This document shows positions 25,915 through 39,401 of a stretch of DNA of 64,000 bases, one piece after another; position 1 is the first letter of the stretch; each line of letters starts with the position of its first letter. A model generated the notes under the pieces. That model was not told the DNA's origin and did not search any database. It saw nothing but the letters and a program-made list of their open reading frames with translations. Where the stretch lies: assembly GCA_003597995.1 (NCBI GenBank), contig QZJY01000030.1, positions 1-64,000 of the forward strand, given 5' to 3'. The translations under genes were made by a program, and so were the position numbers. Source of the stretch: Dehalococcoidia bacterium. GTDB taxonomy: Bacteria; Chloroflexota; Dehalococcoidia; Dehalococcoidales; UBA1222.

Positions 25915-26337
25915 ATGAGCAGCCGCAACACCAAACAGAAAGAGGCCATCCTCAGAGTACTGAGGAAAACGCCGGACCACGCAGACGCGCGCTGGATACA
26001 CCTGCAGGTGCGCCGCTCGCTGCCTCACATCAGTCTGGGAACGGTTTATCGTAATCTCAAGGCACTGACGGAGGAAGGACACATATCCGCCCTTGACATG
26101 GGCAGCGGCAGCCGTTTCGACGGCAAACCGGGCAATCATGCCCACTTTCACTGCCAGAAATGCGGCGCGATTATCAACCTGGAGGAGACTTCAGACGCAT
26201 CCATGGATAAAAATGTCTCGGATAAACACCGCCTGTCGGTGGCATTCCACCGGCTGGATTTTTTCGGTTTATGCCCCGCCTGCCAGCGGGCTTCCACACC
26301 CCCCGTGAATAAAAAGAGTGGAGTACAACATGGCTGA
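25915..26337 (+). CDS. Fur-family transcriptional regulator
   Basis: Metal- or peroxide-responsive repressor, 140 residues. An N-terminal winged helix (KQKEAILRVLRK, SLGTVYRNLKALTEEGHI) precedes the metal-binding and dimerisation part with HAHFHCQKCGAI and CPAC, the two CxxC pairs of the structural zinc site. The charged C-terminal extension is short. Its last 8 bases overlap cooS, so regulator and enzyme are coupled. The PerR, Fur, Zur or Nur subtype cannot be told; a nickel or iron signal would suit a CODH operon. Confidence 0.9.
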   Translation: MSSRNTKQKEAILRVLRKTPDHADARWIHLQVRRSLPHISLGTVYRNLKALTEEGHISALDMGSGSRFDGKPGNHAHFHCQKCGAIINLEETSDASMDKNVSDKHRLSVAFHRLDFFGLCPACQRASTPPVNKKSGVQHG

Positions 26338-28297
26338 AGAAGAACGCCAGCATAGCATTGACCCTGCGACTGTCGAGATGATAGCCAAAGCCAAAGCCGA
26401 TGGCGCGTCTATCGTCTTCGAGCGCGCCGACAAGATGAAACCCTGCCCCATCGGACAGGAAGGCAGTTGCTGCCGCCAGTGCAGCATGGGGCCTTGCCGC
26501 GTGCCCATGGGTAAAAATAAAGAGGAAACAGCGGAGGAAAAAGCCAAACGCAAGGGTGTTTGCGGTGCCACCGCCGAGACCATCGCCGCGCGCCATTTCG
26601 CGCGTATGGTAGCCGCCGGTTCCGCCGCCCATAGCGACCATGCCCGCAAGTCGGTCGAGGCGTTTCTGCTGACAGCTGAAGGCAAAGCCCCCGGTTTCAG
26701 TATTAAAGACGAGCAGAAGTTGCTGGCGCTGGCCCTCGATTTCGGTGTTGAGATAGGCGAGCGCACCAATGAGGCCATCGCCGCTGACATCGGGAAGCTG
26801 GCTTTGCAGGAATTCGGGCAGCAAAACGGAGAACTGCGGCTGATGCGCAGAGCGCCGCTCAAGCGCCAGGAGTTGTGGCGCAAGCAGGAAGTAGCTCCGC
26901 GCGGCATAGACCGCGAAGTGGTGGAGAGCATGCACCGCACCCACATGGGCGTGGACCAGGACTATCACAGCCTGCTGGCCCAGAGCATGCGGACGGCTCT
27001 GGCCGACGGCTGGGGCGGCAGCATGATAGCCACCGAGCTGCAGGACGTCATGTTCGGCACGCCCGCGCCCGTGTTCAGCCAGATTAACCTGGGCGTACTA
27101 AAAGCGGATGAGGTCAATATCATCATCCACGGCCACGAGCCGCAGCTGGCCGAAATACTGGCGGTGATGGCCCAGGACCCCGAGCTGATTGCTTACGCCA
27201 GAAGCAAGGGTGCTAACGGCATCAACCTGGCGGGCATGTGCTGCACCGCCAACGAGATACTGATGCGCCACGGAATGCCAATAGCGGGCAACTTCCTGCA
27301 GCAGGAGCTGGCTATCGTGACTGGAGCGCTGGAAGCCCTGGTTGTTGATGTGCAGTGCATCATGCAGGGCATCCAGGGCGTGGCCCAGTGCTACCACACC
27401 AAGATTATCACCACTGACCCGCGCGCCCACATCGCGGAGGCCATGCACATCGAGTTCGACGAGCATAATGCCATCGAGACGGCTAAGAACATCTTGCGCA
27501 CAGCCATCGACAACTTCCCCAATAGAGGAAAGAATATACATATCCCACAGGAGAAGACCGACCTCATCGCCGGTTTCAGCCACGAGACCATCAACTACCT
27601 GCAGGGAGGCTTGTTCCGCGCTTCTTACCGCCCGCTAAATGAGAATATCATCAACGGGCGTATACGCGGCGTTGCCGGGGTGGTAGGCTGCAACAACGCC
27701 CGTGTCACCCACGACGACATGCACGTGCGGCTGGTTAAAGAACTTATCAAGAACGATGTGCTGGTGCTGCAGACGGGCTGCGCCGCCATGGCCTGCGCCA
27801 AGGTCGGGCTGATGCTGCCCGAAGCCGCCGCCGAAGCCGGACCGGGGTTACGTTCGGTATGTGAGGCGCTGGGCATCCCACCGGTGCTGCACCTGGGCTC
27901 CTGCGTGGACAACGCGCGTATCCTCATCGCCGCCACCGCCATGGTCAAGGACGGCGGCCTGGGCGACGACCTCTCCGACCTGCCGGTGGCCGGCGCCGCC
28001 CCCGAGTGGATGAGCGAGAAGGCACTCTCCATCGGGCAGTACTTCGTGGGTTCCGGCATCTTCACCGTCTTCGGCGTCAACTGGCCCACTATCGGCAGCA
28101 AAGAGGTGACCGATTTCCTCTTCAAAGACTATGAAAATTTGTACGGCGGTATGTGGGCCTTTGAGGCCGACCCCATTCAGATGGCGAAGCTGATGATCGA
28201 CCACATCGATAAAAAACGCAAAGCCCTGGGTATCGACAAGGCCCGCGAGCGCGTCCTCTTCGACATGGATATGCGCCGCTCTATGGAGGCAGTCTAG
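26330..28297 (+). CDS. cooS: Anaerobic carbon monoxide dehydrogenase catalytic subunit
   Basis: Nickel-iron-sulfur enzyme interconverting CO and CO2; with AcsB it supplies CO for acetyl-CoA. ATG at 26330 gives 655 residues. B and D cluster cysteines are in CPIGQEGSCCRQCSMGPC (from about residue 38). C-cluster ligands are visible in GMCCTANEIL, GVVGCNNARVTHD, QTGCAAMACAKVGL and LHLGSCVDNARI. The next start follows its TAG directly. The gene overlaps the Fur gene by 8 bases. Dehalococcoides mccartyi is known to lack cooS, so its presence separates this organism from that genus. Confidence 0.97.
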   Translation: MAEEERQHSIDPATVEMIAKAKADGASIVFERADKMKPCPIGQEGSCCRQCSMGPCRVPMGKNKEETAEEKAKRKGVCGATAETIAARHFARMVAAGSAAHSDHARKSVEAFLLTAEGKAPGFSIKDEQKLLALALDFGVEIGERTNEAIAADIGKLALQEFGQQNGELRLMRRAPLKRQELWRKQEVAPRGIDREVVESMHRTHMGVDQDYHSLLAQSMRTALADGWGGSMIATELQDVMFGTPAPVFSQINLGVLKADEVNIIIHGHEPQLAEILAVMAQDPELIAYARSKGANGINLAGMCCTANEILMRHGMPIAGNFLQQELAIVTGALEALVVDVQCIMQGIQGVAQCYHTKIITTDPRAHIAEAMHIEFDEHNAIETAKNILRTAIDNFPNRGKNIHIPQEKTDLIAGFSHETINYLQGGLFRASYRPLNENIINGRIRGVAGVVGCNNARVTHDDMHVRLVKELIKNDVLVLQTGCAAMACAKVGLMLPEAAAEAGPGLRSVCEALGIPPVLHLGSCVDNARILIAATAMVKDGGLGDDLSDLPVAGAAPEWMSEKALSIGQYFVGSGIFTVFGVNWPTIGSKEVTDFLFKDYENLYGGMWAFEADPIQMAKLMIDHIDKKRKALGIDKARERVLFDMDMRRSMEAV

Positions 28298-38173: not shown

Positions 38174-38866
38174 ATGGAAAACGTCACTGTCTGGTACGCC
38201 TTTGGCGCTGGTGTCGCTTCATTTGTAACCCCCTGCGTCTTGCCGATGGTGCCTATCTATCTTGCCAGTCTGGCTGGTCCAGAGATACTTGAAAGCGGCT
38301 ATTCTCACCGTTGGCTGTTGTTCCTGCACTCCTTGAGTTTCGTGGTTGGCATGGGACTGGTTTTTACCCTCGCCGGAGCGCTGGCAGGACTGGCAGGCAT
38401 AAACATCAATCCCAATTCCCCGTTGGCCCGTAACATTTCGGGCGGGCTGCTTATCTTTTTTGGGCTCTTCATGTTAGGGTCGGCCTTCATTCCCTGGCTT
38501 AATTTCGAGAAACATCTCTCGCCAAAAGCCAGTCTCAGAAGCGGCTACGCGCGTTCTTTTCTTGTCGGGGCAGCCTTCACTGTGGCATGGACTCCATGTG
38601 TCGGCCCGGTACTTGGCAGCGTGTTGACTTTGGCAGTTAACGCGGAGACAGTGGGGCGCGGGGCATTCCTCCTTGCAGTATATTCGCTTGGCCTGGGGCT
38701 GCCGTTTTTATTGATAGGCGCTTTCTTCAGCACGCTAATGCCACTTCTCAAGCGCATCGGACGATTCAGCCGCTGGATATATTTGGCCAGTGGAGCGCTG
38801 CTGGTGATTGCTGGTATACTGATACTGCTGGGCAAGCTCAGCTTCCTTTATCTTAATAGTTGGTAA
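38174..38866 (+). CDS. ccdA: CcdA-family thiol-disulfide electron transporter
   Basis: Inner-membrane protein of 230 residues with six predicted transmembrane segments; it passes electrons from cytoplasmic thioredoxin to outside thiol proteins. The two redox cysteines are in FVTPCVLPMVPIYL (about residue 21) and AWTPCVGPVLGS (about residue 143). A TATAAT at 38159-38164 lies 9 bases before the ATG. The partner TlpA-like lipoprotein with a UxxC motif follows after 13 bases, and cytoplasmic TrxA is encoded at 34.5 kb. Confidence 0.92.
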   Translation: MENVTVWYAFGAGVASFVTPCVLPMVPIYLASLAGPEILESGYSHRWLLFLHSLSFVVGMGLVFTLAGALAGLAGININPNSPLARNISGGLLIFFGLFMLGSAFIPWLNFEKHLSPKASLRSGYARSFLVGAAFTVAWTPCVGPVLGSVLTLAVNAETVGRGAFLLAVYSLGLGLPFLLIGAFFSTLMPLLKRIGRFSRWIYLASGALLVIAGILILLGKLSFLYLNSW

Positions 38867-38879
38867 GGATGAAAATGTT

Positions 38880-39401
38880 ATGTTAAATAAAATGATGGCT
38901 GTTGCGCTGGCAGTCTTTCTTATGCTGACGCTTGTAGCGGGATGCGCCAAATCGGATGGCAATGCGAACTTCGGTAACGCCGTCGGTAGTCGCGCTTACG
39001 ATTTCTCGATGCCTGATTTGAAGGGCAATACGGTTACCTTATCCGACCTGAGCGGACGCCCGGTATTCCTCAACTTCTGGTATGCCGGCTGACCCTACTG
39101 CGTAGAGGAGTTTCCTCTCATAGAGTCTATTTACAAACAGGAAGCAGCCAAAGCCGATGGCGCTGTAATTCTGACGGTCGACATCCGGGATTCCCTCGAA
39201 GGGGCAACGGCCTTTATGAATTCTCGCGGTTATACCGTGCCGGTGCTTCTCGATGCGCATTACGGCAATTCGATGCTGTATGGAGTGTCCGGGGTTCCTA
39301 TGACGGTCTTTATCGACAGGAAAGGCATTATCAGATACATCAAGTTGGGTCCGTTTAAAAGCCTGTCCGAGATTCAGAACGGCCTTGGCAAGATAACCTG
39401 A
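38880..39401 (+). CDS. TlpA/ResA-like lipoprotein, predicted selenoprotein (UxxC, in-frame UGA)
   Basis: Extracytoplasmic thioredoxin-fold oxidoreductase, 173 residues if UGA at 39090-39092 is read as selenocysteine 71. Upstream are a lipoprotein signal (LTLVAGC) and the AhpC/TlpA start (FSMPDLKGNTVTLSDLSGRPVFLNFWYAG). The frame then continues without a break as PYCVEEFPLIESIY, with cis-Pro in GVSGVPMTVFIDRKG and a normal C terminus to TGA at 39399. The UGA falls exactly on the first, nucleophilic Cys of CxxC (WYAG-U-PYC). A SECIS-like hairpin follows. CcdA, 13 bases upstream, would reduce it. A plain nonsense mutation is the alternative; the intact frame after it argues against decay. Confidence 0.82.
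39090..39118 (+). promoter_or_regulatory. UGA codon with bacterial SECIS-like hairpin
   Basis: After the UGA (39090-39092), AGAGGA (39104-39109) pairs with UCCUCU (39113-39118) across the loop GUU. The loop begins with G and lies 17 bases after the UGA. A short stem with a G in the first loop positions, 16-37 bases after UGA, is the known bacterial SECIS pattern read by SelB. Confidence 0.7.

Follow-up and report, generated by a model that had tools for sequence, protein, structure and literature searches.

Bacterial selenoproteins with a TlpA/Redoxin-type thioredoxin fold, selenocysteine (Sec) in the first position of a UxxC motif and a bacterial SECIS (bSECIS) element after the UGA have been catalogued before. 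Reviews list Thiol-disulfide isomerase-like/TlpA-like proteins (cd02966), Redoxin (PF08534), Prx-like thiol:disulfide oxidoreductases (PF00578) and related UxxC selenoproteins (PMC1088965, PMC2398784, PMC9312934, PMC13188914). Because such UxxC proteins are already listed, a TlpA/Redoxin protein carrying Sec in place of Cys is of a known kind. Compared by family description, the protein reported here shares the features named above; unlike it, the catalogued families are tabulated in the reviews without operon context, whereas here we find a ccdA partner and a genome with apparently no other reductant of this type. In open-access text we found no description of a selenoprotein that is paired with CcdA, is a ResA or is linked to cytochrome c. 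The passages found in PMC2397514 compare eukaryotic SelP with TlpA/ResA and contain no bacterial ResA selenoprotein.

Two further selenoprotein models share Sec and the general fold but differ in the Sec motif. The ResA-like WAxxUGC selenoprotein (NF041054, ResA-like/redoxin fold) gave 48 of 300 bits with our protein, and the TUGYCR redoxin (NF053656, redoxin fold) gave 20 of 100 bits with one of its two paralogues in a genome of the same genus (G001), both far short of the cut-off. Among curated models, ResA, StoA and DsbE come nearest by sequence, all under their cut-offs. ResA serves a system II cytochrome pathway, whereas the genome described here has a ccm cluster of the system I type. 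CcmG/DsbE belongs to the same superfamily and would be the functional equivalent beside a ccm cluster, but it is the weaker match (51.9 of 123 bits to TIGR00385, cut-off not reached), and our gene adjoins ccdA, outside the ccm cluster.

The gene lies in the window, a stretch of 64,000 nucleotides from the assembly of a Dehalococcoidia bacterium (GCA_003597995.1, contig QZJY01000030.1; genome G000), and the features of the locus are collected in Table 1. The frame opened by its ATG contains a single TGA, which replaces the first Cys of a CxxC motif (FWYAG-UGA-PYC); beyond it the frame is open for another 102 codons, with no other lesion, up to a stop TGA at 39399-39401. Standard gene calling returns a 70-aa ORF (38880-39092) and a separate 61-aa ORF (39216-39401). 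When fused, the protein aligned to the Pfam Redoxin and AhpC-TSA families across the UGA (E about 1e-22), covering Redoxin profile positions 2-146 of 148. An earlier note, made from the letters of the DNA, had described a frame open through one UGA at the first CxxC Cys, its division by ordinary callers into pieces of 70 and 61 residues, TlpA-family landmarks persisting past the UGA and a ccdA gene 13 bases upstream. We recovered the same frame at the same position and the two ORFs of the predicted lengths, the landmarks are borne out by the profile match and an invariant P140, and the neighbouring gene matches PF02683 where the note had placed it.

Table 1. Features of the ccdA-lipoprotein locus, in positions of the 64,000-nucleotide window.
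Feature	Coordinates	Strand	Remarks
ccdA, transmembrane thiol carrier (DsbD_TM)	38174..38866	+	Pfam PF02683, E 2.8e-21
Predicted Sec-containing ResA/TlpA-like lipoprotein gene	38880..39401	+	173 residues with Sec71, plus stop
Predicted signal peptide and lipobox LVAG-C	38880..38945	+	by eye from the translation: MLNKMMAVALAVFLMLTLVAGC
UGA, predicted Sec71, first position of UxxC (U-P-Y-C74)	39090..39092	+	homologue column is Cys or TGA
Stem-loop of bacterial SECIS type, AGAGGA-GUU-UCCUCU	39104..39118	+	loop 17 nt from the UGA and opening with G

Most full-length homologues aligned have a Cys at the predicted lipobox position (Cys22), which is predicted to be the lipid anchor of an extracytoplasmic lipoprotein. 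An AlphaFold model built with 22 aligned sequences (pLDDT 88.9) placed U71 just before a long helix (72-89) and P140 before a strand (141-145). The protein thus combines a Redoxin/AhpC-TSA fold, UxxC at a helix start and Pro at the cis-Pro position, as in TlpA/ResA-like reductases. ResA led the structure matches, with a target-normalised TM of 0.94 over the ResA domain, an rmsd of 1.1-1.3 A and 34% identity; the PDB sequence list was headed by a Geobacter thioredoxin-family protein, followed by solved ResA structures. The best structural match, ResA of Bacillus subtilis (PDB 1st9, 1su9), is likewise a membrane-anchored CxxC reductase, and E77 here follows C74 by three residues as E80 follows C77 in ResA. 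The two differ in that ResA has CEPC where this protein has U-P-Y-C, and in the anchor, for which a lipobox is predicted here. The structural neighbours further include surface thioredoxin-fold lipoproteins such as Etrx2. By sequence and predicted fold the protein appears nearest to ResA, but because it scored under the cut-off of the ResA subfamily model NF002854 (86 of 170 bits) we call it ResA-like, not ResA.

The end of ccdA and the start codon of the lipoprotein gene are 13 bases apart, and the two genes probably form one operon. Among the five genes with TGA at this site (Sec genes), ccdA is directly upstream in four, namely the gene described here, both G001 paralogues and a gene from another genome of the same order (G041); the fifth, from a further genome of that order (G035), has no adjacent ccdA. 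It is also upstream of most Cys homologues, and 45 of the 52 homologous loci counted (a few entered twice) have ccdA alongside. The ccdA-tlpA pair therefore looks old, in both its Sec and Cys versions. Given this adjacency to a DsbD_TM gene and what is known of the family, electrons are expected to flow from CcdA to the TlpA-type protein. Elsewhere in the window are a probable cobalamin riboswitch (RF00174, 37910-38074, minus strand; E 1.6e-5, with 28.9 bits slightly short of the gathering score, 31.5), which sits upstream of a minus-strand btuF-like gene, between that gene and ccdA, and a carbon monoxide dehydrogenase gene of the Prismane/CO dehydrogenase family (26306-28297, plus strand), which may belong to a Wood-Ljungdahl gene region.

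We propose that SelB and tRNA-Sec from the same genome, aided by the adjoining stem-loop, would decode the UGA at 39090, and that the product would be an extracytoplasmic, lipid-anchored, ResA-like thiol-disulfide reductase with Sec as its attacking residue. CcdA would carry electrons from cytoplasmic thioredoxin over the membrane and reduce the Sec-Cys bond. The reduced protein would then reduce disulfides outside, the likeliest substrates being the CxxCH cysteines of apocytochrome c, as for ResA and CcmG. We hold it very probable that the UGA encodes Sec, and the entire proposal, from a CcdA-fed Sec reductase to a role with cytochrome c, somewhat more probable than its opposite.

The substrate was approached through the gene content of the genome. 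The lipoprotein is the only match found there to PF00578 and the only one to PF08534, and ccdA is the only match found to PF02683. Another contig carries a ccm cluster (L168:5641-11219) encoding CcmE and CcmF, then an ABC ATPase at the CcmA position, then CcmB and a CcmC-like protein; its neighbours include a cytochrome b561-type protein and proteins with CxxCH, and the 17 kb examined there showed no ccmG. In G001, a gene for a cytochrome c domain protein lies some 2 kb from one of the two copies, a hint in the same direction. Because the lipoprotein is the only AhpC/Redoxin protein found, its partner is the only CcdA found and the ccm cluster comes without a detected ccmG, the lipoprotein is the strongest candidate to act as reductant of apocytochrome c. 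The assembly (1.80 Mb) is in 71 contigs and 95.5% complete, and may therefore lack a further reductant; we put a role in apocytochrome c thiol reduction, reached by elimination from gene content in an incomplete genome, at a little better than an even chance. Other secreted disulfides are possible substrates.

The likeliest alternative is a selenoprotein without a cytochrome c role, acting as a general reductase of disulfides (or peroxides) outside the cytoplasm, with CcdA as its electron source. The commonness of ccdA-tlpA pairs across the class, the sub-threshold ResA subfamily score and the Etrx2-like surface lipoproteins among the structural neighbours would all suit such an enzyme. Against it, no other protein of this type and no other CcdA was found in the genome, where a ccm cluster and CxxCH proteins occur but ccmG was not seen. 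We consider a general reductase possible, and less likely than one that acts on apocytochrome c.

A second alternative denies the selenoprotein itself: the UGA would be a real stop, in a recent pseudogene or through a sequencing error that changed TGC to TGA, and nothing would be made past residue 70. A single base separates TGA from TGC or TGT, the assembly that contains the window is incomplete and in many contigs, and SECIS-like stems are common, but the homologues speak strongly against a stop. TGA stands at the same alignment column, in intact frames, in four homologues from three related genomes: the two G001 paralogues and one gene each in G035 and G041. Four further in-frame TGAs on one column are beyond chance. 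The other 44 homologues compared, including one from a genome of the same family (G005), have Cys at that column (TGC or TGT), so that the UGA occupies a functional position at which Sec (five genes) and Cys are exchanged. Alignment to the homologues persists past the UGA, and C74, E77 and P140 are invariant in the 22 aligned sequences. We found neither a TGG nor a frameshift in the relatives, and nothing that points to an isolated sequencing error. With no other lesion in the frame past the UGA and the Sec machinery described below, a real stop is very unlikely.

Several wider searches returned no additional cases. Class- and order-wide searches yielded no further TGA-bearing gene of the ResA/TlpA-like type among the matches listed, and a contig scan for relatives retrieved distant ones only, mostly actinobacterial and none from this lineage. 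A plasmid search retrieved only relatives with <60% identity. Among other open frames with a single TGA in the window, ten were compared with Pfam and none had a domain across a TGA.

All four genes for Sec decoding are present in the genome and lie on one contig (C26) in the order tRNA-Sec, selD, selA, selB. The tRNA-Sec scored 75.3 bits and has the anticodon TCA, selB reached 371 bits (cut-off 242), and selA matched PF03841 with 447 bits. The selD gene (L054:1477-2523), just downstream of tRNA-Sec, is itself a selenoprotein gene, with an in-frame UGA (SRYSG-UGA-GAKLSPG) followed by a 7-bp stem-loop with a 5-nt loop, and serves as an internal positive control. SelB over its cut-off and a tRNA-Sec above 70 bits were found in all four genomes that bear the TGA gene; selB exceeded its cut-off in 32 of the 61 genomes overall. 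Near-cognate decoding or a reassigned code, by which UGA would be read as another amino acid and likewise give a full-length product, is the least probable reading of all, as the site is the catalytic Cys column, dedicated Sec machinery is present and both this gene and selD end in a TGA used as a stop.

The earlier note had placed the stem-loop 17 bases after the UGA. Its sequence, its place and the G that opens its loop are as described there, but 17 nt is the distance to the start of the loop; the stem starts at 11 nt. Published bSECIS constraints comprise a loop of 3-9 nt with G in its first two positions, a stem of 4-16 bp, a distance of 16-37 nt from the UGA and an MFE of at most -7.5 (PMC13188914). 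The element falls within these limits (loop GUU, 6 bp, 17 nt, -9.3 kcal/mol), which have low specificity: of the 1937 TGA triplets in the window, 103 to 200 (5-10%) passed a comparable test that required 6 bp or more of stem, and 1.5% passed when the spacing was set to 16-18 nt and the stem to 5 bp or more. Under synonymous shuffling, 1.6% of trials reached both the stem and the energy observed in this gene; among the four other Sec genes the figure ranged from 0.5% to 6.6%.

The mean stem was 6.4 bp in the five Sec genes against 3.5 bp in the Cys homologues (Mann-Whitney p about 5e-4, uncorrected for shared ancestry), and the register of the stem-loop is common to four of the five. In G041 the distance from the UGA to the loop is 15 nt, one below the published minimum. 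Two stem pairs are altered on both sides among the relatives, with a covariation count that exceeded only 437 of 500 shuffles. The Rfam model SECIS_1 (RF00031) matched nothing in this genome but nothing in any control genome either, so that search is void. The stem-loop is consistent with a SECIS element and not decisive; taken alone, it is near chance. Together, the machinery, the Sec/Cys exchange and a stem-loop common to the relatives support what the earlier note had proposed, a selenoenzyme with Sec at its active site.

In a maximum-likelihood tree with moderate support, the Sec genes of G000 and G001 group with the Cys gene of G005, and those of G035 and G041 lie apart. The best tree requires two Sec/Cys changes; Sec may have arisen here twice, as in that tree, or once. 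Three of the loci (G000, one G001 copy, designated G001b, and G041) have neighbours in common, namely uptake genes of the btu type and an Elp3-like radical SAM/GNAT gene (ORFs identified by inspection). Because these neighbours are shared, the Sec form may be older than the genus.

The relatives also contain other AhpC-type frames with in-frame TGA. In G001, the sister species, all three PF00578 proteins found have one; among them is a second kind of UxxC selenoprotein candidate (L170:1454-1984, plus strand; NRGFF-UGA-PYCRKHM), SelL-related/AhpC-TSA with 64.7 bits (below cut-off), which adjoins a thioredoxin-reductase-like frame. It is resembled by an AhpC-type frame in G054 (L040:2156-2548, minus strand; NRGFG-UGA-PYCRRHM). 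An AhpC-TSA-like frame in G035 (L171, minus strand; LGSFT-UGA-PPFRR) may encode a deiodinase-like selenoprotein.

Ordinary annotation would cut the gene described here into two fragments and lose what is apparently the only ResA/CcmG-type protein of the genome. Its pairing with CcdA and its standing as the only protein of its kind found there make it a useful new example among UxxC selenoproteins, and a testable case of Sec/Cys exchange inside a conserved ccdA operon. We suggest tentatively, at somewhat less than an even chance, that the sole extracytoplasmic CcmG/ResA-type reductant in the genus is a CcdA-fed selenoprotein and that assembly of c-type cytochromes there needs selenium. If the role we infer is right, selenium supply would be tied to cytochrome c assembly in these organisms.
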